Assembly: GCA_006227105.1 (NCBI GenBank)
Contig: SBFR01000196.1
Coordinates: 1 to 37,450 of the forward strand
Length of the DNA: 37,450 nt
Direction: 5' to 3'
Origin: Bacteroidota bacterium
Lineage (GTDB): Bacteria > Bacteroidota > Bacteroidia > Flavobacteriales_D > Crocinitomicaceae
In this document: piece by piece, positions 6,760 through 33,126 of the stretch
Layout of the letters: each line of letters begins with the position of its first letter
Position numbering within the stretch: position 1 is the first letter of the stretch
The notes under the pieces: generated by a model
Databases searched by the model: none
The model's input: only the letters and a program-made list of their open reading frames with translations
Told to the model about the DNA's origin: nothing
Made by a program: the position numbers and the translations under genes

Positions 6760-7898
6760 TCCTTAAAAGGATTCGACTGTTCTCCTATATTCCCAGTATA
6801 TCCCTGGCGAATGTGTAGATCTCTTTGTGGGTAAGGAATAGATATTTGATATTCTCTGAATAGTCGATCGATCTCAAATCTGATTTCTGACATGTAATTC
6901 TGAACATCCCAACTTTGATCTGCCCAGAAGATCAACTCCATTTCAAGGCCGTTGTCTCCAAAATTCTTAAGACGAACATCTACAGGTTCATTCTTCTTTA
7001 CTTTAGGGTGACCCATTGCGGCTTGTTTTAAAAGACGAGAGACCAATTCAGTATTCGATCCATATGCAACCGTTACAGGAAGTTTAAATCTTGACAGGGG
7101 CGAACCGTGACTCCAGTTTTCTACGAATTCCTGTGTGAGTTTTGTGTTCGGGATGATCAGAACATTTCCTTCTCTGGTTTCAATATGCGTAGTTCGAACA
7201 TTTACTTTGAGGATCTTTGCCACCATGGCATCAGACTTGCCTCCATTGGAGATCTCGATGACATCTCCCACTTTAATATTGCCTTCCAGTAACAATACTA
7301 CCCCGGCAAACATATCCTTGAAAACGTCCTGAAGTCCTAGACCTAGACCAACAAAGATACCGACAGAGGAGGTGATCAAGAGTGTAATGTCTATGTCAAG
7401 TGCTCTAAGACTCGAGAAGATGGCAAAAATGTAAACGACATATTTGGCGATCTGTTGATAGACATATTCAGTACCGGCATTGTATTCATTCGATTTCCTG
7501 AATTTCTTGGAGAGGTAGAGATTAACGATGTTCAGAGCTACCCTGGCCAGGAAAAAGATCAGAATCAATACCATGATATGGTAAAAACTCAGTGTGAATT
7601 TCTTTGACTCAATGAGATTGTAATTCAGAAACTCCTCAAAGGTGACCTCTTCATTGTTTATTCTGAAGCTAAGAATAGCAATATAAACGGCAAGAACGTA
7701 AATACTCTGACTTACTAGCTTTAACCAGGTGATCTTGCGCCCTTCGATCCTAATATTGGACTTCTGAAGTGTTTTTTTCAGCGTTCTGGTAATGATTCTT
7801 CTCAATGCCATGGAGAAGATCACGATCAGAGACCAAATGATCAAATTCCAGAGGCATACGTCGTAAGGACCAATTTTGAAGAGTGTATAGCTTAACAT
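6753..7898 (-). CDS. MscS-family mechanosensitive ion channel
   Basis: A 381-residue inner-membrane protein. Hydrophobic segments are near residues 15-33, 46-66, 104-128, 152-168 and 172-190; the last merges into the pore helix of the MscS family (SSVGIFVGLGLGLQDVFKDMFAGVVLLLEG), followed by the beta domain (IKVGDVIEI, THIETREGNVLIIPNTKL) and an alpha-beta C-terminal domain ending in IRFEIDRLFREYQISIPYPQRD. It should release solutes under hypo-osmotic stress. With about five membrane spans it is a mid-size homologue, larger than E. coli MscS. It is the last gene of the operon, 3 bp after dnaG, and overlaps the converging ALDH gene by 7 bp. Confidence 0.9.
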   Translation of the reverse strand: MLSYTLFKIGPYDVCLWNLIIWSLIVIFSMALRRIITRTLKKTLQKSNIRIEGRKITWLKLVSQSIYVLAVYIAILSFRINNEEVTFEEFLNYNLIESKKFTLSFYHIMVLILIFFLARVALNIVNLYLSKKFRKSNEYNAGTEYVYQQIAKYVVYIFAIFSSLRALDIDITLLITSSVGIFVGLGLGLQDVFKDMFAGVVLLLEGNIKVGDVIEISNGGKSDAMVAKILKVNVRTTHIETREGNVLIIPNTKLTQEFVENWSHGSPLSRFKLPVTVAYGSNTELVSRLLKQAAMGHPKVKKNEPVDVRLKNFGDNGLEMELIFWADQSWDVQNYMSEIRFEIDRLFREYQISIPYPQRDLHIRQGYTGNIGEQSNPFKDQ

Positions 7899-7901
7899 GT
7901 C

Positions 7902-9848
7902 TTATTTCAAAATGATTCTACCAAGTTTTTCTGCAATACTGATCTTTGCTCTTTCATACAAAATTTGCTGAGAAAGCAGGTCATTTAATTGTTCATGATC
8001 GATCTCGCCTGATGAAAGGATCTTTCTGATATCCTCAATCCGCTCTTCGATTTTTGAAGCTTTAAACGAATAGATGGAGTGTAGGACACATGTTTCTAAT
8101 CGATCTTCTTCACTTCTGATGAGGATATTGAAATCATTAAGCCATTTATGACTCACCTCCTGGTCGCTGCTCTCAATATCAGAGATCAAACGAACAATAT
8201 CCTGATCCTCATTTCTAAGGTAAAAAGAAGAATTGTATAGCGTTTTGTTTTCAAGTCCTTCAAGAACAAGAGCAAAGATCTTATTGTAGAGGGGATGGAC
8301 AAAGCCAAGATCATCATTCAATAATTCCTGACAGATCATTTCAGAAACACTTAGTTTATAATCTTCCTGATTTTTATCCGGAACGATTTCTCGATCACCA
8401 TATTTCATCAATATTCGGATCAACCCAAATTCACTTGGAGAATAGGAAGGAGCTGCGCTCGTTGTAGGTTGCTCAACAACAGGAATTGGTTCAATAGGAA
8501 TATCACGGATCTCCGGTTCATTGAGCTGTCTGGAAAGAGTGTTCTTACGTAGCTTTGTCAGCTCATTATTTAAGATTTGCTCGCTGATGTTGAAGGAGCT
8601 TGCGATCTTTTGAAGATATACTGTACGAGTGATCTGATCAGGGATCAATGAAACCGAGTGAACGATCTCTCGGATCAATTCAGCTCTTTTCAAAGGATCT
8701 TCTTCACCATCTTTTAGCAGGATATCTGCTTTGAATGAAATGAAATCCTGTGTATGCTGCTCGATATAATTTTCAAGTTCAGCTGAGCTTACCCGCTTGG
8801 AGTAAGAATCCGGGTCTTCTCCTTCAGGGAACAGAACAACCTTAACATTCATCCCTTCTTCCAGGATCAGGTCAATTCCTCTGAAGGAAGCTTTGATTCC
8901 TGCGGCATCACCATCGAAAAGGATAGTAATGTTTTGCGTATAACGTCTGATCAGTTTGATCTGATCTTTTGTCAGGGAAGTACCAGATGATGAAACAACA
9001 TTTTTTATTCCGGCTTGAAACATACTGATCACATCAGTATAACCTTCACATAAAAAACAATTGTCGTATTTGATGATATCACCTTTGGAATAGTAAAGAC
9101 CATACAAGATCTCACTTTTGTTGTAGATGATACTTTCGGGCGAGTTGAAGTATTTCGCTACCTTTTTATCAGTGAATAATGTTCTTCCTCCAAAACCAAG
9201 TACACGACCTGTAACGCTATGGATCGGGAACATTACTCTTCCGCGGAAGAAGTCAAAATGTCTGTCTTCCTTCGTTTTTACAAGACCTACCTTTTCCAGG
9301 TATTCTAACTTATACCCCTTCTCAAGAGCATTTTTAGTAAAATCGTCCCCGGTATTGAGGCAGTAGCCAAGTTGAAATTGTTTAATGATCTCCGGTCGAA
9401 ACCCTCTTTCTTCGAAATACGACATCCCGACTGCATTACCCTCTTCACTTTCATGAAGGTTCTTCATGAAATGGTCTTTTGCAAATTCATTAATGATGTG
9501 CAAACTTTCGCGCTCAGAGATCGCAGCTAATTCTTCTGCTGTGGCAGGTTTGTCTTCCGGAATAGGAATACCATACTTGTCTGCCAGCCATCGAAGGGCC
9601 TCTGGATAGGAGAAATGTTCCTTTTCCATGAGAAAAGTAACAACAGATCCTCCTTTACTCGATGAAAAACATTTGAAGATCTGTTTTCCTGGAGATACCA
9701 CAAAAGATGGTGTTTTTTCGTCCGTAAACGGACTTAATCCTTTCAGGTTTGATCCAGCTCTTTTGAGATTGACATACTCCCCGATGACCTCTTCAATTCG
9801 GGCAGTTTGCATGATCTCATCAATAATATGTGCTGGAATTTTTGACAT
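7902..9848 (-). CDS. dnaG: DNA primase
   Basis: A 648-residue bacterial primase that makes RNA primers at the replication fork. The order is an N-terminal zinc-finger-like domain (1-95), the catalytic core with TOPRIM motifs (LCEGYTDVISMFQAG, NITILFDGDAAG), and a C-terminal helicase-binding region rich in helices (about 460-648). Comparison with E. coli C40, H43, C61 and C64 gives S39, T42, C60 and S63 here (LKGLSPFTDEKTPSF, IFKCFSSSKGG), so three of four zinc ligands are missing although the fold residues around them are kept. The same loss is typical of flavobacterial primases as I remember them. It lies between a lipoprotein gene (3 bp gap) and mscS (3 bp gap). Confidence 0.96.
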   Translation of the reverse strand: MSKIPAHIIDEIMQTARIEEVIGEYVNLKRAGSNLKGLSPFTDEKTPSFVVSPGKQIFKCFSSSKGGSVVTFLMEKEHFSYPEALRWLADKYGIPIPEDKPATAEELAAISERESLHIINEFAKDHFMKNLHESEEGNAVGMSYFEERGFRPEIIKQFQLGYCLNTGDDFTKNALEKGYKLEYLEKVGLVKTKEDRHFDFFRGRVMFPIHSVTGRVLGFGGRTLFTDKKVAKYFNSPESIIYNKSEILYGLYYSKGDIIKYDNCFLCEGYTDVISMFQAGIKNVVSSSGTSLTKDQIKLIRRYTQNITILFDGDAAGIKASFRGIDLILEEGMNVKVVLFPEGEDPDSYSKRVSSAELENYIEQHTQDFISFKADILLKDGEEDPLKRAELIREIVHSVSLIPDQITRTVYLQKIASSFNISEQILNNELTKLRKNTLSRQLNEPEIRDIPIEPIPVVEQPTTSAAPSYSPSEFGLIRILMKYGDREIVPDKNQEDYKLSVSEMICQELLNDDLGFVHPLYNKIFALVLEGLENKTLYNSSFYLRNEDQDIVRLISDIESSDQEVSHKWLNDFNILIRSEEDRLETCVLHSIYSFKASKIEERIEDIRKILSSGEIDHEQLNDLLSQQILYERAKISIAEKLGRIILK

Positions 9849-22849: not shown

Positions 22850-23314
22850 ATGTATCAAATAAAGAGCGAGCAGATCATCGAATGTAGTTTGGAAGAGGCA
22901 TGGAGTTTTTTTTCTTCGCCCAAGAACCTTTCGAGCATTACCCCTTCTTCAATGGATTTTAAGATCAGAACAGATCTCATTGATGATATGTATGAGGGTA
23001 TGATCATTAAATACACCGTTCGTCCCCTTCTGAATATTCCAATGACATGGGTGACAGAGATCTCACACATTAAAGAGAACTCTTTCTTTGTTGACGAACA
23101 ACGAATGGGTCCATACAAAATGTGGCATCATGAACATCACTTTTATCCTCATGAAAAAGGAGTGCGGATGGTAGATATCGTAAGCTATTCCTTACCTTTT
23201 GGATTTATCGGAAAAATTGCCCATTGGATGTTTGTCCGTAAAAAGCTGGAAGGTATTTTCAAATTCAGAGAAGAAGCCGTGATCAGGATCTTTCCTTCAA
23301 AGAGCGAACGGTAG
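22850..23314 (+). CDS. SRPBCC (START-like) ligand-binding protein
   Basis: A 154-residue helix-grip protein of the SRPBCC/polyketide-cyclase-like superfamily. It opens with YQIKSEQIIECSLEEAWSFFSSPKNLSSITP, the typical first strand and helices, and ends with a long C-terminal helix (MFVRKKLEGIFKFREEAVIRIF). The ATG at 22850 is chosen over an in-frame TTG at 22826, which falls inside the inverted repeat. Small SRPBCC proteins often accompany photolyase genes in light-induced clusters; here it converges on the end of the photoprotection operon with a 32-bp overlap of coding regions. The ligand is not known. Confidence 0.82.
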   Translation: MYQIKSEQIIECSLEEAWSFFSSPKNLSSITPSSMDFKIRTDLIDDMYEGMIIKYTVRPLLNIPMTWVTEISHIKENSFFVDEQRMGPYKMWHHEHHFYPHEKGVRMVDIVSYSLPFGFIGKIAHWMFVRKKLEGIFKFREEAVIRIFPSKSER

Positions 23315-23747
23315 CAAGAGATTGACTCACGTGACCATGAGGATCAGACTGTGAATCATAAATTCCGGCAATCTTTCCTTCTAAGTCAATTACGTATGTT
23401 ACTCTACCTGGAATTAAGCCAAAAAGACTCGGTCTTACCTCGAATGCTTTTCTGACTTTTTGATCCGTATCGGAAAGTAACATAAATCCAAGAGAATGTT
23501 TATCGGCAAATCGTAAGTGGGTATCAGGTTTATCCGAGGATATCCCAATAACCTCACAACCTTCTTCTATAAATTGATCATGATTATCTCTGAATGAGCA
23601 AGCCTCTTTCGTGCAACCCGGTGTATGATCTTTGGGATAGAAATAGATCACCAATATTTTTTTTCCGATCAAGTCTTTGCTGCTGATTATTTTTCCATTC
23701 TGATCTGGCAATTCGAAAGCCGGACATTGGTCACCAATTTGTTTCAT
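23283..23747 (-). CDS. bcp: Thioredoxin-dependent peroxiredoxin (Bcp/PrxQ family)
   Basis: A 154-residue peroxiredoxin that reduces H2O2 and organic hydroperoxides with thioredoxin. The active site is P38-x3-T42-x2-C45 in YPKDHTPGCTKEACSFRD, with C45 peroxidatic and C50 the resolving cysteine five residues later, as in the atypical 2-Cys PrxQ group. No signal peptide, so cytoplasmic. It is the last gene of the carotenoid-photolyase operon, beginning 1 bp after the photolyase stop. Its coding end overlaps the converging SRPBCC gene by 32 bp. Confidence 0.93.
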   Translation of the reverse strand: MKQIGDQCPAFELPDQNGKIISSKDLIGKKILVIYFYPKDHTPGCTKEACSFRDNHDQFIEEGCEVIGISSDKPDTHLRFADKHSLGFMLLSDTDQKVRKAFEVRPSLFGLIPGRVTYVIDLEGKIAGIYDSQSDPHGHVSQSLATVRSLKERS

Positions 23748-23748
23748 G

Positions 23749-25041
23749 TTATTTTTTTAATGTACTACGATATCTTTCAATGGCTCTTTCACGAGCCATT
23801 TTATGTTCGACAATGGGCTCTGGGTAAGAGGATGTGCCATACTCAGGCACCCATTTTTTTATGTATTCAAATTTTGAGTCAAATTTCTCTTGTTGAGATG
23901 TTGGGTTAAAGACTCTGAAATAGGGTGCGGCATCACATCCTGATCCAGCGGCCCATTGCCATCCCCCCACGTTACTGGCAAGGTCAAAGTCCATTAACTT
24001 CATAGCGAAATAGGCTTCTCCAAGTCTCCAATCGAGTAACAGGTGTTTTGTAAGAAAACTTGCAGTGACCATTCTTACCCGATTATGCATGAATCCAGTT
24101 TCATTTAATTCCCGCATTCCTGCATCCACCAACGGGTATCCAGTCTTTCCTTCACACCATGCTTTGAAATGGGTATCATTATGTTCCCAGCGTATGGAGT
24201 CATATTCTTTTCGAAAAGAATTTATCGCTGAATGCGGAAAATGATAGATGATCATCTGATAAAAATCTCTCCAGATCAATTCATTCAGGTAAGTAGGATT
24301 GTGCTTCAAGGCAATGCGACACAACTCCCGAATACTAATTGTACCAAATCTCAAATGAACACTTAGTCTTGATGTACCATGAATGGCCGGAAGATCCCTT
24401 GTTAGGTGATATTTATCAATAATACTGACATTGGGTTCGTTAGGGTCTTTGGCATACGATTCATGAAGGAACCCCATTTCTTTCAAAGTCAATAGAGGCT
24501 CCGGAATGCATTTTTCCAATTTTGAAAAATAGGGAGATGTAGGATAGGAGGAAAGATAGAAATCATTTAACTTTTCCTTCCACTTTTTTGAATACGGTGT
24601 AAAGACCGTGTATGGTTTACCATCATTTTTCAGGATTTCGTTCTTTTCGAAAATGACATGGTCTTTAGTTCCTGTGAATTGAATGTTCCTGTCGTTTAGA
24701 AGATCAAAGATCTTTCTGTCTCGATCCAACGCATATGGCTCGTAATCACGATTTGTGAAAACCATTTTTGCATTAAAATCTTCGGCGAGTTTTGGTATTA
24801 AATCTATGGGGTCACCAAATCTGACAATTAGATCTGATCCATGTTGCTGATAGATCGATTTAAGGTTTTTGATGGCATCATAAATAAAGCTGACCCTTTT
24901 ATCATTTTCAGGCAGTTCGCTTAATATGTTCGAATCGAAAATGAAAACCGGGATGACGGATGCTCCTGATTTTAGGGCTTTGTACAATCCGGCATTGTCT
25001 TCGGACCTTAGATCTCTTCGATGCCAGAATAGAGCTTTCAT
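23749..25041 (-). CDS. phrB: Deoxyribodipyrimidine photolyase (cryptochrome/photolyase family, class I type)
   Basis: A 430-residue photolyase that uses blue light to split cyclobutane pyrimidine dimers. The N-terminal antenna-binding Rossmann domain starts MKALFWHRRDLRSEDNAGLYKAL; the C-terminal FAD domain has GTSRLSVHLRFGTISIREL, LNELIWRDFYQMI, GYPLVDAGMRELNETGFMHNRVRM and the flavin-pocket segment LMDFDLASNVGGWQWAAGSGCDAAPYF, all diagnostic of this family. It is somewhat shorter than E. coli PhrB (about 470). ATGA overlap with the pterin synthase gene upstream. Members of this family carry a folate or flavin antenna, so the adjacent pterin enzyme is suggestive. Confidence 0.94.
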   Translation of the reverse strand: MKALFWHRRDLRSEDNAGLYKALKSGASVIPVFIFDSNILSELPENDKRVSFIYDAIKNLKSIYQQHGSDLIVRFGDPIDLIPKLAEDFNAKMVFTNRDYEPYALDRDRKIFDLLNDRNIQFTGTKDHVIFEKNEILKNDGKPYTVFTPYSKKWKEKLNDFYLSSYPTSPYFSKLEKCIPEPLLTLKEMGFLHESYAKDPNEPNVSIIDKYHLTRDLPAIHGTSRLSVHLRFGTISIRELCRIALKHNPTYLNELIWRDFYQMIIYHFPHSAINSFRKEYDSIRWEHNDTHFKAWCEGKTGYPLVDAGMRELNETGFMHNRVRMVTASFLTKHLLLDWRLGEAYFAMKLMDFDLASNVGGWQWAAGSGCDAAPYFRVFNPTSQQEKFDSKFEYIKKWVPEYGTSSYPEPIVEHKMARERAIERYRSTLKK

Positions 25042-25442
25042 TCACCGTTGTATTCAACCACGTTGTTTTCCGTTTCCCACAGACGAATGACCAATTTGTA
25101 TTTCGACTCCAGTTTTGGTCTCAATAAATTGTAAATGACCACAGCAATATTTTCTGCAGAAGGCTTTAACTCTTTAAATTCTGGACAATCCAAATTTAGA
25201 TTTCTATGATCAAAGCGTTCACCAACCTCCTCGTTGACAAGTTCTTTTAATTTTTTAAGATCAATAACATAGCCCGTCTCAGTATCTATCTCTCCTTCGA
25301 TCCATGTCTCAAGCACATAATTGTGACCATGATAATTTGGATTACTGCATTTACCAAAAACCTCGAGGTTCTTCTCGTCTGACCATTCAGTATTGAAAAG
25401 TCGGTGGGCAGCATTAAAGGTTGTACGTCTACACACTTTCAT
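25038..25442 (-). CDS. 6-pyruvoyl-tetrahydropterin synthase / QueD family enzyme
   Basis: A 134-residue T-fold enzyme acting on 7,8-dihydroneopterin triphosphate. Zinc ligands are H13 (FNAAHRL) and H38, H40 (YHGHNY), and the catalytic cysteine is C32 in FGKCSNPNYHGHNY. That segment resembles animal 6-pyruvoyl-tetrahydropterin synthase (GKCNNPNGHGHNY) more than the short-loop QueD pattern, and there is no Glu replacement of the PTPS-III (folate bypass) type. So the product could be 6-pyruvoyl tetrahydropterin or 6-carboxytetrahydropterin (queuosine route). No other queuosine gene is nearby. It overlaps idi by 14 bp and phrB by 4 bp. Confidence 0.85.
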   Translation of the reverse strand: MKVCRRTTFNAAHRLFNTEWSDEKNLEVFGKCSNPNYHGHNYVLETWIEGEIDTETGYVIDLKKLKELVNEEVGERFDHRNLNLDCPEFKELKPSAENIAVVIYNLLRPKLESKYKLVIRLWETENNVVEYNGE

Positions 25443-25965
25443 AGGTCAACTTTTGAGAGATTTTACTAAAATGGTCTAACATGATTATTCTGAACCAAAC
25501 CGTATACTTTGAAGGATTTTCCTTTATGTCTTCGATCAGTCGATCTGGATTTACAAATTTATATTCCATGGCTTCTTCAGGATTTAATTCGGGCAATTCG
25601 TCCGATATTCCTATAAAGACGTGATCCAGTTCATGTTCAATGAGTGAATTATCAAATTCTGCCCTGTAGATGAATGAAAAACTGTGTTTTAACATTGTAT
25701 TCATCCCCATTTCTTCATTTAATCGGCGATGTGCTGCGGCAGCAGTATCTTCTTCTGGCCTAGGATGACTACAACATGTGTTGGTCCATAATCCAGGGGA
25801 ATGGTATTTATCCAAAGCCCTTCTTTGCAATAACAGTTCTCCGGAAGAATTAAATATTAAAACAGACAGAGCCCTGTGCAACAAACCATCAATGTGGGCT
25901 TGGAGCTTTTCTTCAGATCCGATTTCCTGATCATTTTCGTTAACAAGGATGACTTTGTCTTCCAT
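25429..25965 (-). CDS. idi: Isopentenyl-diphosphate delta-isomerase, type I
   Basis: A 178-residue Nudix-fold enzyme that interconverts isopentenyl and dimethylallyl diphosphate. The active-site cysteine is C65 in GLWTNTCCSHPRPEED, with metal-binding histidines at H25 and H67 and the catalytic glutamate region in IEHELDHVF (residues 109-117). Placed between crtB and the pterin synthase gene, it should raise the supply of allylic primer for carotenoid synthesis. The start codon overlaps the crtB stop by 1 bp (TAATG). Confidence 0.94.
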   Translation of the reverse strand: MEDKVILVNENDQEIGSEEKLQAHIDGLLHRALSVLIFNSSGELLLQRRALDKYHSPGLWTNTCCSHPRPEEDTAAAAHRRLNEEMGMNTMLKHSFSFIYRAEFDNSLIEHELDHVFIGISDELPELNPEEAMEYKFVNPDRLIEDIKENPSKYTVWFRIIMLDHFSKISQKLTYESV

Positions 25966-26801
25966 TAGATCAAATTCAAATTATGTCTAAGGTACGAAGA
26001 AACAAACAGTCGATATTTCTTGCCATTTGGAATACGAATTCTTTCATTTAGAATTCGCTGCGCCTCCAAACCTTTGATCTTAGCAAATAGTTTGTAATAA
26101 TAGATATAGGCCATGTATACCCCAAATCTCGAATTCTTAGGCAATTGTTTGATTCCTTCATACCCTAAGCGGAAATCTTCTTCAATGTCTTTTTCGATCT
26201 CTTTTTTAATGGTGGAATCGAATTCTTTCATGTCAATCCCTGGGAAATACGTTCTTCCCAGTTCATGGTAATCTGCTTTAAGATCTCTAAGGAAATTGAT
26301 CTTCTGAAAAGCCGATCCCAATTTCATTGCAGCAGGTTTAAGCCTTTCATATTCTGCTTCGTCACCATGAACGAAAATCTTTAGACACATTAGTCCTACA
26401 ACCTCAGCAGAACCCAAGATGTAATTTTTATATCCAATTTCGTCGTAATCCGATTTTCTCAGGTCCATTTCCATACTGTCAAGAAATGTCGTGATCAAGT
26501 CGTGCGGAATTCTATATTTATTCACTGCCCATTGAAAACTATTGAGAACAGGATTGATCGAGATTCCTTCCTCTATTGCTTGAAAGGTTTGAGATCTGAA
26601 TTCAGTTAGCATCTTTTCTTTCGGATAGTCATGAAATGAGTCTACGATTTCATCTGCTAATCTTACAAATCCGTATAGGGAATAGATTGGCCTTTGAATT
26701 TCCTTTGAAAGGAATGAAATTCCCAAAGAAAATGATGTACTGTATCGTTTAGTAGTCAATTCACTAACTTCAAAAGAAACGCTATCAAATAATTCTTTCA
26801 T
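25965..26801 (-). CDS. crtB: Phytoene synthase
   Basis: CrtB, 278 residues, condenses two geranylgeranyl diphosphates to 15-cis-phytoene. The two aspartate-rich squalene/phytoene synthase motifs are D50-E-I-V-D54 in GFVRLADEIVDSF and DLKAD near residue 174 in KINFLRDLKADYHELGRTYFPG. The gene follows crtI by 5 bp. No crtE-type GGPP synthase is in the operon, so the substrate must come from a prenyl synthase elsewhere (the one at 10268 looks like a long-chain quinone enzyme). Confidence 0.95.
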   Translation of the reverse strand: MKELFDSVSFEVSELTTKRYSTSFSLGISFLSKEIQRPIYSLYGFVRLADEIVDSFHDYPKEKMLTEFRSQTFQAIEEGISINPVLNSFQWAVNKYRIPHDLITTFLDSMEMDLRKSDYDEIGYKNYILGSAEVVGLMCLKIFVHGDEAEYERLKPAAMKLGSAFQKINFLRDLKADYHELGRTYFPGIDMKEFDSTIKKEIEKDIEEDFRLGYEGIKQLPKNSRFGVYMAYIYYYKLFAKIKGLEAQRILNERIRIPNGKKYRLFVSSYLRHNLNLI

Positions 26802-26806
26802 TGTAA

Positions 26807-28282
26807 TCAGTTTATTGGGTTTTCTTGGTTTATCACTTGAGCTACCACCTCACCGGAAATAATGGATGGAGGAACTCCTGGTCCAGGAACGGTTAGCTGC
26901 CCTGTGTAATATAGGTTTTGAATCTTTTTATGTTTGAGTGATGGCTTCAATATTGCCGTTTGTTTCAAGGTATTTGCAAGACCATAGGCATTACCCCTAA
27001 ACGCATTGTAATCGGATTTAAAGTCTGAAACACAATAGCTCCTCTTGTAGATCACATGATCTCGGATACTTTCACCTGTATGTTTTTCAAGGCGATCCAT
27101 CAACATGGAATAGTATTTTTCACGTGTTTCCCCGTTGTCTTCCAGATCCGGTGCAATTGGGATCAAAAGAAACATATTTTCTTTGCCTTCAGGCGCAACC
27201 GTCTTATCTGTTTTGGATGGTACACAACAATAAAACAGTGGTGCACTTGGCCATTTAGGTTGCTCGTATATTTCTTTTGCGTGTTCTGTAAAAGGCTCGT
27301 CAAAAAACAAATTGTGGTGAAGAAGATCTTTTACTTTCTTGTCAACTCCTAAATAGAAAAGTAAACTCGACGGAGCCATCGTTCGACTTTTCCAGTATTC
27401 GTTACTGTAATTTGATTTTCCTTTCAGGATAGTTGAATCTGTATGTTGGTAATCGGCACCTGAAACAACGATATCAGCTTCAAACTCACCATTGTCAGTA
27501 ATTACCTTTGAAACAGAATTCCCTTCATAGGCAAATCCAGTTACATTTTGTTCTGTTAGAATTTTTACTCCTTGGTCATTGGCGATTTTTTCGAATGCTT
27601 CAATGAATTTATGCATCCCACCCATTGGATACCAAGTTCCAAGCGAAATGTCTGCATAATTCATCAATGAATAAAGAGCGGGGGTCTTATCAGGTGTGGC
27701 ACCAAGAAATAGCACTGGGAATTCCAATAGGCTTAGAATTTTCTCATTCTTGAAGTACTTTCTGATGTGTTTGGCAAATGAGCTTAAAAGATGCATCCTA
27801 AACAGACCTTTAAAAATCCTGAAGTCTGCAAATTCTCTCCATTTCAATCCAGGTTTAAATACGAGTTCGTTCATACCAACTTCATACTTGTATTTTGCTT
27901 CGTCCAGAAATTTCGTAAGTTTCTCAGAACTTCCTGACTCCATTGATTCGAAAAGGCTTTTTAGTTCCTGAAGCTCTGCTGGAAGATCAGTATGAGTTTG
28001 GTCTTTCCAATAGACGCGGTATGAAGGGTCAAGTCTTTTTAACTCGTAAAAATCCGAAGTTGTATGTCCGAACTGGTTATAAAAGCGTTCGAAAACGTCA
28101 GGCATCCAATACCAGCTAGGTCCCATGTCGAACATGAATCCATTTTCTTCAAATTTCCGGGCTCTTCCTCCAATCGTTTTATTTTTCTCCAGAATAGTCA
28201 CGTCGTACCCTTCTTTTGCTAAAAAAGAAGCGCATGAAAGAGATGAGATCCCAGAACCGATTATAACCGCTTTTTTACTCAT
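26807..28282 (-). CDS. crtI: Phytoene desaturase
   Basis: CrtI, 491 residues, an FAD-dependent desaturase and isomerase that converts phytoene to lycopene or a related polyene at the membrane. The FAD-binding fold is at the start (VIIGSGISSLSCASFLAKEG, then TILEKNKTIGGRARKFEENG) and the C-terminal CrtI signature is YTGQLTVPGPGVPPSIISGE. It begins with TAATG overlap to the sigma factor stop. There is only one desaturase and no cyclase, hydroxylase or ketolase in this operon, so the final pigment is made with genes elsewhere or stays acyclic. CrtD-type relatives look similar, but the pairing with CrtB favours CrtI. Confidence 0.94.
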   Translation of the reverse strand: MSKKAVIIGSGISSLSCASFLAKEGYDVTILEKNKTIGGRARKFEENGFMFDMGPSWYWMPDVFERFYNQFGHTTSDFYELKRLDPSYRVYWKDQTHTDLPAELQELKSLFESMESGSSEKLTKFLDEAKYKYEVGMNELVFKPGLKWREFADFRIFKGLFRMHLLSSFAKHIRKYFKNEKILSLLEFPVLFLGATPDKTPALYSLMNYADISLGTWYPMGGMHKFIEAFEKIANDQGVKILTEQNVTGFAYEGNSVSKVITDNGEFEADIVVSGADYQHTDSTILKGKSNYSNEYWKSRTMAPSSLLFYLGVDKKVKDLLHHNLFFDEPFTEHAKEIYEQPKWPSAPLFYCCVPSKTDKTVAPEGKENMFLLIPIAPDLEDNGETREKYYSMLMDRLEKHTGESIRDHVIYKRSYCVSDFKSDYNAFRGNAYGLANTLKQTAILKPSLKHKKIQNLYYTGQLTVPGPGVPPSIISGEVVAQVINQENPIN

Positions 28283-28794
28283 TAATTCATTGCATATCGA
28301 TAACCTGGCAATAGATCTATCAGCTTTTGACGAGCGATATAAATTCTGCTTTTCACCGTTCCGATCGGGATATTCAGTTGGTCCGCGATCTCCTTGTATT
28401 TAAATCCATTGAAATGCATAAGGAATGGTGTTTTAAAATCATCTTCCAAACGCTCGATCTTTTCTCTCAATTCCTTTTCCGTCATCTGACGCTGAGGATT
28501 GCCTAGGTCGTTTCCAGTATTTGAAATTAAGGATAAATCTTTACTATGGTCGAAGATTTCTCCAGATTTAACTCTTCGGCGATATTGATTGATGAAAATG
28601 TTACGCATGATCGTAAAGACCCATGCCTTAAAATTGGTTTGTGGTGTGTAATAACTTCGGTAAGTGATTGCCTTCAACATTGTTTCTTGAGTAAGATCAA
28701 GTGCATCTTCTTGATTTCTTGTGAATGTGAATGCAAAGGACTTCAAATTTCCTTCGAGTCCGATTAGTGCTTCATTGAATTCTACAGTTGACAT
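28282..28794 (-). CDS. ECF-type RNA polymerase sigma factor, carotenoid-operon type
   Basis: A 170-residue sigma-70-family (ECF) factor. Region 2 spans about 10-80 (DALDLTQETMLKAITYRSYY, FKAWVFTIMRNIFINQYRRRV) and region 4 about 110-165 (LPFLM-type helix, YKEIADQLNIPIGTVKSRIYIARQKL). It heads the crt operon, as ECF factors do in many Bacteroidota carotenoid clusters. No anti-sigma gene is adjacent, which is unusual for ECF factors generally, so control is probably at transcription through the multi-site operator directly upstream. Its own targets may include promoters elsewhere. Confidence 0.93.
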   Translation of the reverse strand: MSTVEFNEALIGLEGNLKSFAFTFTRNQEDALDLTQETMLKAITYRSYYTPQTNFKAWVFTIMRNIFINQYRRRVKSGEIFDHSKDLSLISNTGNDLGNPQRQMTEKELREKIERLEDDFKTPFLMHFNGFKYKEIADQLNIPIGTVKSRIYIARQKLIDLLPGYRYAMN

Positions 28795-28801
28795 TTCTCT
28801 T

Positions 28802-28866
28802 TGTTTAACAAATACGATTCAAAGTTAAACAAAAAATGTTTAACAAAACAAAAAAAAAGTTAAACA
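28802..28866. promoter_or_regulatory. Four-half-site operator TGTTTAAC/GTTAAACA upstream of the photoprotection operon
   Basis: Four exact 8-bp copies in alternating orientation: TGTTTAAC at 28802-28809, GTTAAACA at 28824-28831, TGTTTAAC at 28837-28844, GTTAAACA at 28859-28866. Centre distances are 22, 13 and 22 bp, i.e. two identical TGTTTAAC-N14-GTTAAACA palindromes offset by 35 bp. They fill the whole space between the upstream stop codon and the sigma factor start and overlap the -7 box. This is the arrangement expected for a tetrameric or paired dimeric repressor such as a MerR-type CarH/LitR photoreceptor; the regulator gene is not in the window. Confidence 0.7.
28820..28852 (-). promoter_or_regulatory. 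Promoter of the sigma-crtI-crtB-idi-ptps-phrB-bcp operon
   Basis: Minus-strand TAACTTTG at 28827-28820 is an exact TAnnTTTG -7 box; TTTG at 28852-28849 lies 21 nt upstream as a -33 element (another TTTG is 16 nt upstream). The predicted start near 28814 gives a leader of about 20 nt before the ATG at 28794. The -7 box shares four bases with one operator half-site, and another half-site lies in the leader, so binding would block polymerase. Confidence 0.7.
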
Positions 28867-28869
28867 AAA

Positions 28870-31800
28870 TTAAATTTTCATTCCAATGATAGTAATGTCG
28901 TCGGTTTGCTTGTTGCTACTTTTCCATTTCAGGAATTCATCTTCTATCATTATTTTCTGGTCAGGAAGAGGCAATCTTATATTTTCTTCCAACATTTCAA
29001 GTAACCTTCTGAAAGAGAATTTTTTATTTTTTGGTCCACCGAACTGATCTTGCATTCCATCTGTAAATAGATATATGATCGAATTATCTGATAAATTCAG
29101 TTCATGGGTAATATATCCTCGGAATTCCTTCATGTTACGATCACCAATATGTTTAATGTCTCCTTTGAACATATTGAATCCACGATCTTCCCAGATCAGG
29201 AATCTTGAACCTGCACAGCTATAGGATAGTTTTTTCTTCGCGTGGTCAAAAACACAAATGGTGAGCTCAATACCATCTGTTATCTTGGTGCCTTGTATTT
29301 CTGTAGACAAGATCTCTCGTAACTTTTGATCCATTTCGTTCATGATCAAACCAGGTTCTTTTAATTGGCCTTCCAGAACAATCGAATTGAGCATATTAAT
29401 TCCAAGTAAAGTCATGAAAGCGCCCGGCACACCATGGCCAGTGCAGTCACCAACAGCTACAACTGTGAATTGCTGAGTTCGGTGAATCCAATGGAAGTCT
29501 CCTGAAACGATATCTTTAGGATGGAAGATGGCGAAAGATTCATTGAATACCTCCCGATATGAATTTTCCTGAGGCATTAAACTCATCTGGATCCTTTGAG
29601 CATATTCGATACTGGACGTAATGTCATCTCTTTGTTCCTTAATGATCTCTTGTTGGGCACGGATCTCAGTTATATCTCTTGCTAACGCAAGGAATCCTTT
29701 AATATAGTGGTCGCTTCCTTCCTGAAATTGTGTTGTGACATGTTGCCCCAACCAGATTATTCGTCCATTTCTGGATTGGATAGGAAATTCAAAATAACTA
29801 CTGGATAGCTTTCGCTTAAAATGATCCTGGTAATATTCCTGAACTTGCTCTCTGTATTCGTCAGGAACAATAGTAAGTGCGCTTTTCCCATTAATTTCGT
29901 CCTTATCGAACTCAAGGATCTCATACATCCTGTTATTCAGAAACTGAAAGTTCCCATTCACGTCACATTGAAAAATAAGGTCTTCAGCATTCTGAACAAG
30001 TAATTCGTAAGTATTTTCTAATTCTTTCCTGTCCGATACATCTTGTCCGAGTATCACTTTGACATTATCTGAAAATACTTTGCATGACCACTCGATCCAT
30101 TTTATGTTTGATGTTGAATTGAGAAAAGGAACCAGATATTTTTGACCATCAAAAAATTGTGAGGTAAGATCAACATTTCGATATCCACCTGTTTGAGGTA
30201 AGAACTTATTTAAAAAAGAAATGTGTTGATGAAGAAGCTCATCCGATTTAATAGGAACAATTTGATTGATGTTCTCACTGGCATATGTGATCTTTCCATC
30301 TTTATTGAACGCTACGACTTGTGCATTCCCTTGATTTACTACTCCAGAAATGAAGATCAATTTTTCCAAAGAATCATTTCGAAGGAAAGAGATCATTATG
30401 GACATAAAAGCTGCTGCCAGAACAACGAACAAGAAGAGATATTTGTTGTAATGCGTCTGATCCAAGTACAATGTCATCGAACTGCAGATGACAAGAATTA
30501 TCAGGTTTTGTATGATCACCCATTTTATTCGCTCAAACACAAAAGGTGAAACGCATAAGATCATTGAAATAGCAAAGATATAGAATGGGTTTAGGTTTGA
30601 CAAGAATGCACCTATGACATAGTGAGACAAAACAAAGAAGTACGCCAGGATCAAATAAAGTCTGAACAGTTGCTTTCTTCCGGATCTTTCCGCTGATTTT
30701 GATAATAAATAAAGAGATAGAAGACCAAAACCAGTTGTAATTGCCAGACCCATCATTTCGGGGATGGCAGGATCAATGATCGGAGCAATGTAGTTGGCTA
30801 TCACATCTGAGAAAAAGGCGAAAAGTAGGATGGAAGGGGTAATATTCAGCTCTACAGATGTATCCTGTGTTCTGAAATAATTTCCTGAATCAAAAGAACG
30901 ATATCTGACCACGATGAAAATATTGATCAGTACGATTAGAGAAATCAGAAATAGAATGAACCACTTTGTTTTCCAAAATGGAAAATTGACGTGGATGGTG
31001 TATTTGCTTGTGTCACTAAATACAATTCCATCATAAGATGATCGAACCTCTAGGGTATAGTCTCCATTGCTAAGTTCGGACAAATAGATCTTGTCAAGGT
31101 TTGATAGTTCTGACCATTCATCCGAGAATCCTTTTATTCGGTAAGAATAAAGGATATTGTTGATCTTCGGATTATTCGTTGAAAGCTGGAAGGAATAGGA
31201 GTTTTCTTTTTTGGTAATCACACGATAAACCAAAGGTTGAATAACGGGAGGAGTTGGTTTTGGAAAATGCTTAAGCAACTCAGTGTTAATAGAAAACAAG
31301 CCTTCAATAGTTCCAACGTAGAGAATATTATCATCCTGAAACTGTGCCCTCATGTGAGTTTCAAAACCGCCAAATCCTGTTTCTCCCGTGAAATGGCGGG
31401 AATCTCCCGGTTTACCAAGTTCATTCACAGGGAGTATAGTAATACCTTTATTCGTTCCAATGATCAAGTTTCCGAACTTGTCAGCGCTCAGAGTATAAAG
31501 AAGTTTGGAATTAAAATATTTGTTGTCTTTTATTGAGACGGTCTCACCATTTGCTAAAATTCCAAATAGTCCGTCGTCTCCTGTGAACCAAACTGTTTTG
31601 TAAACATCGAGGGTTGAATTTCCAAAGTAGTAACCAACCGTTTTACTTTCAGGGACCTTTTTAAGGGTAAGTTTTTGTGGGTTCAATTCAAATACACCCT
31701 CATTGGTTCCTAAATACCATATTTTGCTTATTGGTGATTTAGTGGCAGTGTAGATAAATCGTGGTCCTTTAAAGATCTTCTTGAGAGTAAAGTCCTTTGA

Positions 31801-33126
31801 GTCGAAAATGATTAATCCCGAATCGGCTATTCCAATGAAAAAAGTATTACCGTCTTTCTGAATAAGATTGATCTTTTTTCCTTCAAAACCTGGGATCAAA
31901 TTGATTTTCTTTGTCTGAATGTTCATCGACCGAAGACCATCTGAACAAGCCATGTACAGCTGTGATTCCGTTTCAAGAAAGTTTAGGATCCTGAAATCAA
32001 GATTTTGGAATGGCTGATTCAAACGTATATTACTAATAAAAGAACCACTCTCACCCGTCGAAAGAATGATATCAGAATCCTTCGTTTTATGGATTGAAAA
32101 AATATCGGGATAACGATAGACGGGATTCAATTGTATTTGTGTGAAGGGATCAAGTGAAACCTTGTAGATTCCTTTATAATTTGATCCTATCCAAAGGTCG
32201 CCTGATGCGTCAACAACAATATTGTTGCATGTTTGAAGTGACTCAAAATAATTTTGAGCCATGCGCTTGGTTGTCCCATTGTTTGAAACGTAGAGCTTGT
32301 TGAAAGTTGTCAGAAAGAAAATCTCATTTTTAAGACTGCTGTATGCTACATCCTTTATTGTTTCTAGTGGTTCAAGTATATTTGAAAGGCTCGTCTTTGA
32401 ATAGGAGAAAATTTTTCCAGATGATTCGAGAACAATGTCAAGTCGGCTTGTAAGATCATTAGTAAACAAGCTCACTTTTTGACCGTCAAAAATGGCATGA
32501 GTAATCCCTTTCACGGAAGTTGAAGATACTCTTAACCAGTAATGCAATTGAACGATTCGCTGAGTGCTTTGAGAGAAATAGAAATTGCCTTGGTCCGTTA
32601 AAATCAGTTCTCCATTGTGGATTTTTAAAGTTTGAATACGACTGATATCTTCTTTGAAATCATAGATTTTTTCCAACGTTCCCTTGCTGTTGAGATAGAC
32701 TCCTTTCGTCGAAATAATGAGCATGGATTTCTTAAAAAGCTCAATGCGCTGAACTTCTCCTTTATAGTCTCTTGCTCCTGCAATTAAATTAGTCTTTCCG
32801 TCTTCTATCTTATAAATACCCCTATACTTAGACCCGAAGTAGATCTTTTTTTCAAATTCCTTGATATCACATACATGATGTCTATTAAAGGACGAGTCCA
32901 TTCCGACTTCATGGAATTTCCTGCCGTCAAATCGAATAAGCCCGGCACCATCCGTACCAACATAAAGACTTCCATTTTCACTACTCAGTAGGGACGTGAT
33001 GTTAGAGGTGATCAGACCATTTTTATGATTGAAATTTTTAAAGGTGTATAGCTGCGACAATGCTCTTCCGGGAAGGAGCAATGCAGGAAGTAAAAAAATC
33101 AAAAATCTCAACAGAAGTAGTCTCAT
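28870..33126 (-). CDS. Large membrane sensor: beta-propeller, Y_Y_Y, polytopic membrane domain, two PAS, SpoIIE-type PP2C phosphatase
   Basis: A 1418-residue signalling protein. Signal peptide (1-24); two-component-regulator-type propeller repeats to about 625 (GSLYVGTDGAGLIRFDG, GDLWIGSNYKGIYKVS, GNLIIGTNKGITILPV); Y_Y_Y domain about 640-712 (YRIKGFSDEWSELS, NGDYTLEVRSS); one membrane helix 722-742; about six more membrane helices between 762 and 916; PAS 1 about 925-1030; PAS 2 about 1040-1155; short coiled coil; SpoIIE phosphatase 1200-1418. Metal ligands are intact: D1210 in VSGDF, D1227 in VGDCTGHG, D1356 in LFTDG, D1409-D1410 in QTDDIT. It probably dephosphorylates an anti-anti-sigma partner in response to a periplasmic and redox or PAS signal. 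The target is not in the window. It ends 75 bp before the ECF sigma gene on the same strand. Confidence 0.9.
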   Translation of the reverse strand: MRLLLLRFLIFLLPALLLPGRALSQLYTFKNFNHKNGLITSNITSLLSSENGSLYVGTDGAGLIRFDGRKFHEVGMDSSFNRHHVCDIKEFEKKIYFGSKYRGIYKIEDGKTNLIAGARDYKGEVQRIELFKKSMLIISTKGVYLNSKGTLEKIYDFKEDISRIQTLKIHNGELILTDQGNFYFSQSTQRIVQLHYWLRVSSTSVKGITHAIFDGQKVSLFTNDLTSRLDIVLESSGKIFSYSKTSLSNILEPLETIKDVAYSSLKNEIFFLTTFNKLYVSNNGTTKRMAQNYFESLQTCNNIVVDASGDLWIGSNYKGIYKVSLDPFTQIQLNPVYRYPDIFSIHKTKDSDIILSTGESGSFISNIRLNQPFQNLDFRILNFLETESQLYMACSDGLRSMNIQTKKINLIPGFEGKKINLIQKDGNTFFIGIADSGLIIFDSKDFTLKKIFKGPRFIYTATKSPISKIWYLGTNEGVFELNPQKLTLKKVPESKTVGYYFGNSTLDVYKTVWFTGDDGLFGILANGETVSIKDNKYFNSKLLYTLSADKFGNLIIGTNKGITILPVNELGKPGDSRHFTGETGFGGFETHMRAQFQDDNILYVGTIEGLFSINTELLKHFPKPTPPVIQPLVYRVITKKENSYSFQLSTNNPKINNILYSYRIKGFSDEWSELSNLDKIYLSELSNGDYTLEVRSSYDGIVFSDTSKYTIHVNFPFWKTKWFILFLISLIVLINIFIVVRYRSFDSGNYFRTQDTSVELNITPSILLFAFFSDVIANYIAPIIDPAIPEMMGLAITTGFGLLSLYLLSKSAERSGRKQLFRLYLILAYFFVLSHYVIGAFLSNLNPFYIFAISMILCVSPFVFERIKWVIIQNLIILVICSSMTLYLDQTHYNKYLFLFVVLAAAFMSIMISFLRNDSLEKLIFISGVVNQGNAQVVAFNKDGKITYASENINQIVPIKSDELLHQHISFLNKFLPQTGGYRNVDLTSQFFDGQKYLVPFLNSTSNIKWIEWSCKVFSDNVKVILGQDVSDRKELENTYELLVQNAEDLIFQCDVNGNFQFLNNRMYEILEFDKDEINGKSALTIVPDEYREQVQEYYQDHFKRKLSSSYFEFPIQSRNGRIIWLGQHVTTQFQEGSDHYIKGFLALARDITEIRAQQEIIKEQRDDITSSIEYAQRIQMSLMPQENSYREVFNESFAIFHPKDIVSGDFHWIHRTQQFTVVAVGDCTGHGVPGAFMTLLGINMLNSIVLEGQLKEPGLIMNEMDQKLREILSTEIQGTKITDGIELTICVFDHAKKKLSYSCAGSRFLIWEDRGFNMFKGDIKHIGDRNMKEFRGYITHELNLSDNSIIYLFTDGMQDQFGGPKNKKFSFRRLLEMLEENIRLPLPDQKIMIEDEFLKWKSSNKQTDDITIIGMKI

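Follow-up and report, generated by a model that had tools for sequence, protein, structure and literature searches.

The promoter region of a photoprotection operon in this Crocinitomicaceae genome carries four copies of the 8-mer TGTTTAAC, arranged as two inverted pairs. Judged by its conservation in orthologous promoters, this array is a real, conserved operator, and the best candidate for its binder is most likely a CarH-type B12 photoreceptor. The array very probably serves as the operator of a light-derepressed photoprotection operon, and would be bound by adenosylcobalamin-loaded CarH (AdoCbl-CarH) in the dark. Compared with known systems, it would represent CarH-type light control with a new operator arrangement, built on a recognition core that is already known.

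The window, i.e. the whole stretch of 37,450 bases that was analysed, contains four exact copies of the 8-mer, all of them in the array (Table 1). They alternate in orientation with start spacings of 22, 13 and 22 bp, just as the first-pass annotation had described, and span 65 bp. In the reading direction of the operon (minus strand), they make up two inverted pairs, TGTTTAAC-N14-GTTAAACA, with 5 bp between the pairs; the last half-site stops 7 bp short of the ECF start codon. The number of copies by itself is unremarkable: 1.63 are expected per window (standard deviation 1.28), and four or more were reached in 9 of 100 shuffles. Because the plain 8-mer count is not rare, the case for the array rests on its conservation across promoters. 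As for the spaced pair, TGTTTAAC-N10..18-GTTAAACA is found in two places in the organism's own draft assembly (2.94 Mb in 256 contigs, 88.8% complete), both within the array, and its backwards control in none; the genome search that the annotation had called for therefore returned no scattered copies. Looser matching (14-base spacer, up to three mismatches) gave 26 places, including the array pairs, versus 55 for the control, which renders degenerate matches in this genome meaningless; further regulon sites sought in this way were dropped.

Table 1. Features of the array, its putative promoter, the operon behind it and the candidate regulator. Positions refer to the window, except for carH.
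Feature	Position	Strand	Basis or remark
Half-site 1	28859..28866	-	exact TGTTTAAC; distal inverted pair, upstream arm (operon sense)
Half-site 2	28837..28844	+	exact copy; distal inverted pair, downstream arm
Half-site 3	28824..28831	-	exact copy; proximal inverted pair, upstream arm
Half-site 4	28802..28809	+	exact copy; proximal inverted pair, downstream arm
Putative -7 element TAACTTTG	28820..28827	-	sequence match to TAnnTTTG
Candidate -33 element TTTG	28849..28852	-	21-bp spacer; read from sequence
Alternative -33 element TTTG	28844-28847	-	16-bp spacer; completed by G of half-site 2
ECF sigma factor, first gene of presumed operon	28282..28794	-	Sigma70_r2, Sigma70_r4_2
crtI-like phytoene desaturase	26807..28282	-	Amino_oxidase, NAD_binding_8; name from operon context
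crtB-like phytoene synthase	25965..26801	-	SQS_PSY
Isopentenyl-diphosphate isomerase-like NUDIX protein (idi)	25429..25965	-	NUDIX; name by resemblance and context
6-pyruvoyl-tetrahydropterin synthase-like (PTPS)	25038..25442	-	family search
DNA photolyase/cryptochrome	23749..25041	-	family search
bcp-like peroxiredoxin, perhaps last operon gene	23283..23747	-	named by resemblance
carH, 292 aa	G000:C1:1900-2775	-	MerR_1, MerR, B12-binding_2, B12-binding, all above Pfam cut-off

The genes behind the array (ECF, crtI, crtB, idi, PTPS, photolyase, bcp) form a tight run on the minus strand. The bcp-like gene follows the photolyase gene in several relatives, too. On the other side of the operator, the gene for a 1418-aa protein with Y_Y_Y, PAS and SpoIIE-phosphatase domains (window 28870-33126, minus strand; its Reg_prop match falls short per stretch) separates the operator from purK, both here and in some relatives; in other members of the genus, purK occupies this place.

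The consensus of the -7 element is TAnnTTTG. The putative -7 box, TAACTTTG, read on the minus strand from 28827 to 28820, has the bases TAAC in common with half-site 3, and the overlap of the -7 box with one copy, noted in the first reading of the sequence, is thus confirmed. Since the -7-like box overlaps half-site 3, and a -33-like TTTG overlaps or adjoins half-site 2, binding of a protein to the array and binding of RNA polymerase should be mutually exclusive. By sequence alone, then, the array overlaps the putative promoter of carotenoid genes, with crtI and crtB lying behind it. Of the 115 ECF-crtI promoters introduced below, only 25 have a proximal left half that makes up a full TAnnTTTG, and the -7 overlap is therefore a match in the organism's own genome and not a general rule; the relaxed form TAnnTT(T/A) is found at this position in 71/115, and TAnnTTTG occurs anywhere in the last 80 bases in 58/115.

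Conservation was assessed from a motif-blind search for ECF orthologues in 200 genomes of the same family, 123 of which gave a match at 1e-25. One promoter was cut by a contig end (G164) and left out, so that 122 were examined, each as the 200 bases upstream of the ECF start codon (105 bases in one that was cut by a contig end). Seven promoters without crtI in the stretch were excluded (L234, L278, L289, L290, L292, L293 and L307); the set of ECF-crtI promoters numbers 115, with the organism's own included. A pair was counted when its half-sites were inverted and had at most one mismatch each. At least one such pair is present in 109 of the 115 promoters, and two pairs in 80; first-order Markov resamples of the same promoters yielded a mean of 0.34 per 115, with a maximum of 2 in 100 rounds, and never two pairs. 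The remaining 6/115 have no pair at the cut-off used. The half-sites are hence conserved in orthologous promoters, which is what the proposed promoter alignment had been meant to reveal. The first-pass annotation had named two grounds for abandoning the array, namely a lack of conservation in orthologous promoters and random scattering of the motif through the genome; as the half-sites are conserved and the exact pair is not scattered, neither applies.

The geometry is conserved as well. The spacing from plus- to minus-oriented half-site is 22 bp in 107 promoters and 23 bp in 16, and the next peaks, at 35 and 36, correspond to the outer arms of two adjoining pairs. The profile consists of near-invariant TGTTTAA(C/T) and (G/A)TTAAACA arms surrounded by T-runs and A-runs, with a weakly conserved centre; such a combination of invariant arms and weak centre suits a dyad bound by a dimer. 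Across all 200 family genomes, the exact pair (N10-18) occurs 112 times, in 76 genomes, against 13 for the backwards control. Where neighbouring pairs are present in the family promoters, their centres are 34-35.5 bp apart in 81 of 101 cases and 63-65 bp apart in 12. Some genera are missing the distal pair at its usual place upstream of ECF-crtI (L270, L273, L274, L276, L280, L284, L285 and L288); by eye, these same loci share a conserved TTGGCAC box just before the proximal pair, which resembles the -24 element of sigma-54 promoters, although no -12 element can be clearly matched.

Classical MerR operators are inverted half-site dyads that are shorter and lie in a stretched promoter spacer, from which they serve activation. 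The array resembles them in offering a dyad to a MerR-type winged helix; it differs in being about one helical turn wider and in covering the promoter elements, an arrangement that would suit repression. In Streptomyces, the carotenoid light response involves the LitR-LitS cascade, which comprises a CarH/LitR regulator and an ECF sigma factor; the difference here is that the ECF gene heads the carotenoid operon itself.

The closest parallel in the accessible part of the literature is with published CarH operators. These are described as tandem direct repeats of 11 bp, nnnnTnnACAn, three in Thermus and four in Bacillus megaterium, which overlap promoter elements of carotenoid genes and are read by a regulator with MerR and cobalamin domains (excerpts of PMC9304148). 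GTTAAACA contains TAAACA, and thus the TnnACA core given in those excerpts. The array accordingly shares with the operators of Thermus thermophilus and B. megaterium, as described there, the TnnACA half-sites, the overlap with a carotenoid promoter and, as a candidate, a MerR regulator with cobalamin domains. The tandem 11-bp direct repeat is not what is seen here, however: the half-sites are inverted, with starts 22 or 23 bp apart, and the pairs often occur as two per promoter. The first-pass annotation had called the motif different from known ones; this was mistaken for the core and correct for the arrangement. The same excerpts describe operator design in myxobacteria as plastic. The Myxococcus xanthus CarA operator is portrayed as a stretch of about 55 bp that binds two dimers, with one repeat overlapping the -35 region; inverted repeats, degenerate among relatives, were once proposed for it, and direct repeats were later suggested as the true units (PMC9304148, same excerpts). 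The present array is like this operator, so described, in its two inverted repeats, and unlike it in that inversion is the feature conserved across genera. Within the searched open-licence literature, seen in part (CarH with Bacteroidetes, LitR with Flavobacteria and proteorhodopsin, operators, repeats), no description of this operator was found, and literature matches to the 8-mer were unrelated among the matches listed. For Chryseobacterium lacus, the available text reports light-induced carotenoids and calls the light-regulated mechanism one of unknown pattern.

A suitable regulator is encoded in the organism's own genome, in keeping with the earlier suggestion to look for a MerR/B12-binding protein. 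Among three MerR-type genes, one gave a CarH-like match; its 292-aa product has the N-terminal MerR winged helix and the helical and Rossmann B12-binding domains that define CarH, and its closest solved relatives are Thermus CarH/LitR structures (3whp, E 6.3e-16; 5c8d, E 7.5e-16). In Thermus CarH, cobalamin is contacted by a W, by an E-H pair and by an H that serves as the lower ligand. When the two proteins are aligned, all of these residues are kept. The W, E, H and H columns are invariant in 61/61 distinct homologues, and a fifth column holds E (56) or D (5); the 61 sequences derive from 68 loci in Crocinitomicaceae and other Bacteroidota and were recovered by their DNA-binding-domain signature only. 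The genome also encodes a cobalamin adenosyltransferase (PF01923, E 3.8e-61).

In the organism's own genome, carH is unlinked to the ECF-crtI operon. In a number of relatives it adjoins the operator: in five loci from other genera (L011-L014 and L018), carH comes first, followed by the operator and the ECF-crtI operon, and an inverted pair lies directly before carH itself in genomes G038 and G052. Cytophaga aurantiaca DSM 3654 (L186) likewise has carH next to the operator. The likeness to multi-site CarH/LitR operators, which had been remarked upon from the sequence, gains support from the presence of the organism's own CarH, from the adjacency of carH and operator in relatives and from the TnnACA core. 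Autoregulation was considered for the organism's own carH and rejected; a site with three mismatches lies at its start, and the two closest relatives (G090 and G140) have none with four mismatches or fewer before carH. Autoregulation of carH is hence not supported in this genus. Next to carH, in divergent orientation, meaB (encoding the methylmalonyl-CoA mutase chaperone) is found at L315 (Pfam-checked), L318 and L323, in genomes G052, G038 and G150, and this neighbourhood is a further link of carH to B12 metabolism.

CarH and the pair also tend to occur in the same genomes. Of 165 family genomes with a CarH match at 1e-10, 74 contain the exact pair (N10-18), compared with 2 of the 35 CarH-negative ones; these counts are uncorrected for relatedness and completeness. 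Part of the 91/165 CarH-positive genomes without an exact pair reflects mismatch tolerance; with up to two mismatches, the best pair is found in 113 of 116 ECF promoters of CarH-positive genomes. Six ECF-bearing genomes have no CarH match. Pairs with one or two mismatches are kept in four of these (G195, G101, G189 and G028), whose assemblies are 80-93% complete; the other two, which are near-complete, have a weak operator or none, with three mismatches in G043 and six in G078, where the stretch contains no crtI. A correlated loss of CarH and operator is only suggestive, because the four less complete CarH-negative genomes keep their pairs.

Other explanations of the array have to be weighed against binding by CarH. 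Low-complexity A/T sequence, or plain chance, might be suspected in a region that is A/T-rich and has A-tracts, the more so as shuffled windows can reach the same number of copies. This is refuted by the promoter counts (109 of 115, against 0.34 in the resamples) and by the fixed spacing, and the excess of exact pairs over the backwards control in the 200 genomes also speaks against it; we regard chance as practically excluded. It is highly improbable, too, that the boxes are promoter elements through which the ECF sigma factor reads its own gene. Their position just before the ECF gene in nearly all promoters of the set would agree with such a role, but the boxes form dyad-symmetric inverted pairs, are also located before genes for CarH, PTPS, CrtB, rhodopsin and fasciclin, and are present in genomes outside the 123 ECF matches at 1e-25 (e.g. 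G038, G045, G052 and G150).

A third possibility is that the array is the operator of another dimeric regulator, be it a small effector-less MerR protein, a TetR-type protein or one that has gone unrecognised, with CarH doing no more than often lying next to carotenoid genes. In Allomuricauda pb2 (G205), an array of three half-sites stands ahead of a fasciclin gene, with no CarH match and a 124-aa protein as its only MerR; the organism's own carH stands apart from the operon; and small MerR proteins (open frames of 115-127 aa) are encoded in this genome and in six of seven genomes checked, the one in G200 having 268 aa. Nevertheless we consider this unlikely, given the pairs directly before carH itself in two genomes, the skew of exact pairs towards CarH-positive genomes and the presence, within the half-site, of the core reported for CarH in the excerpts cited above. 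Moreover, a 109-residue effector-less MerR of Bizionia (MliR) is tied to iron homeostasis in the available part of PMC9478572.

With CarH as the preferred binder, regulation might proceed as follows. In the dark, a CarH-type MerR protein loaded with adenosylcobalamin, encoded away from the operon, would bind the two inverted pairs; a tetramer could bridge both. The bound protein would cover the -33/-7 region of the promoter for ECF sigma factor, crtI, crtB, idi, PTPS and photolyase, and so repress transcription. Light would break the cobalt-carbon bond, whereupon the oligomer would fall apart or let go, and the release of CarH would allow the operon to be transcribed. CarH itself would respond to B12 and light.

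The array is not confined to the family. A GTDB scan for three half-sites in array returned at least 119 stretches. By record title, 34 of these are Bacteroidales and three belong to Paenibacillus, Alkalibacillus and Pseudanabaena; all of these were set apart, and 82 were taken as Bacteroidota. The 82 include two with other titles (L104, Kuenenia; L180, Sphingomonadales), and many are Crocinitomicaceae that are also in the family set; as some loci and family genomes are the same records (e.g. L208, L329), the two sets are not independent. Among the matches listed, 63 of the 82 have either an ECF, crtI, crtB, PTPS or photolyase gene no more than 600 bp from an exact pair or carH at a distance of up to 1.5 kb; a Bacteroidales locus scored beside an ECF gene (L131) was kept out of this count. 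Again among the matches listed, a carH gene no farther than 1.5 kb from the array is seen in 22 of the 82 non-Bacteroidales Bacteroidota loci, and in 22 of 119 overall, none of them titled Bacteroidales. Distances between neighbouring pair centres in the 82 loci (n=81, among the matches listed) are as follows: 34-35.5 bp in 33, 21-22.5 in 19, 41-45 in 14, 53-56 in 3 and 63-64.5 in 9. Because each half-site on its own comes close to a palindrome, alternative pairing accounts for part of the values around 21-22 bp.

Of the 82 loci, 19 fall outside the 63 with such neighbours. In ten of these the array faces a gene whose product has a fasciclin domain; in L138 it faces the gene of a CIA30 protein, and in L215 that of a rhodopsin. 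Fasciclin-facing loci are L109, L127, L152, L156, L176, L182, L187, L208 (the same record as L329), L213, L217, L185, L313 and L326; the domain was Pfam-checked in L109, L152, L185 (which has carH), L217 and L313, and assigned by sequence resemblance in the others. Algal fasciclins (AstaP) are reported to bind carotenoids, and by analogy the operator-facing bacterial fasciclins may be carotenoid carriers; a search of the accessible literature for fasciclin, carotenoid, flavobacteria and light found nothing relevant. In four flavobacterial genomes besides Allomuricauda pb2 that have arrays before fasciclin genes, the MerR open frames are 301 to 329 aa long and all keep the cobalamin residues (L344-L347). 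In L215, the pair (7320-7349) lies directly before the rhodopsin gene (7398-8000; PF01036, 1.4e-34). The contig is shared with L128, where the crt operon is accompanied by the operator and by carH. A second rhodopsin gene (L017 in G002, 1578-2345; PF01036, 4.6e-44) is directly preceded by a single pair at 1501-1531.

Four pair-rich genomes (G038, G052, G150 and G176) were inspected in 20 stretches, including five of the seven pairs of G038. Behind the pairs are carH, crtI with crtB and idi, PTPS-FolE, SOUL, a TetR-type gene and fasciclin genes, as well as a run of an unnamed gene, TspO and photolyase, and an SDR run or photolyase-like genes. Assignments were checked against Pfam, each in a single genome, for FolE, TspO, SOUL, fasciclin, TetR_C and the FAD domain of the photolyase in L316, and the rest were named by resemblance. 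At L314 the pair lies where a transporter-like gene ends, before a different gene, and may be due to chance. Taken by their annotations, the genes behind the pairs read as a putative photo-oxidative stress regulon.

A broader proposal, to which we give an even chance, is that non-Bacteroidales Bacteroidota possess a B12-photoreceptor regulon with a grammar of its own, in which inverted TnnACA pairs about 22 bp apart, often two of them, are bound by CarH as symmetric head-to-head dimers and control carotenoids, photolyase, cryptochrome, tetrahydropterin synthesis, SOUL, secreted fasciclins and, in some lineages, proteorhodopsin. If this is true, head-to-head binding would be unlike the tandem head-to-tail reading in Thermus and would pose a structural puzzle, in that a single recognition core is read from inverted repeats here and from tandem ones there. 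It would also provide a readable DNA signature of a light regulon in a phylum that is common where waters are sunlit, and leads one to expect that carotenoid genes, DNA-repair genes and some rhodopsin genes are controlled by light and B12. For some lineages the inverted-pair operator is a testable candidate, Dokdonia being outside the genomes covered.

Arrays of a related kind occur in the Bacteroidales set (L100, L107, L112, L117, L119, L120, L139 and others), where TGTTWAACA recurs every 21-23 bp; they are present in many contigs of, for example, Tannerellaceae TD116_bin28 and Mediterranea Cd354_bin2, and are not near carotenoid genes. A CarH search of four array-bearing Bacteroidales genomes gave no match in three and one weak match, over the MerR part, in the fourth (2.2e-5). 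As these arrays lie away from carotenoid genes and their genomes lack a good CarH match, the 9-mer alone is not diagnostic. The Paenibacillus genome has a distant CarH match (1.4e-20, 25% identity).
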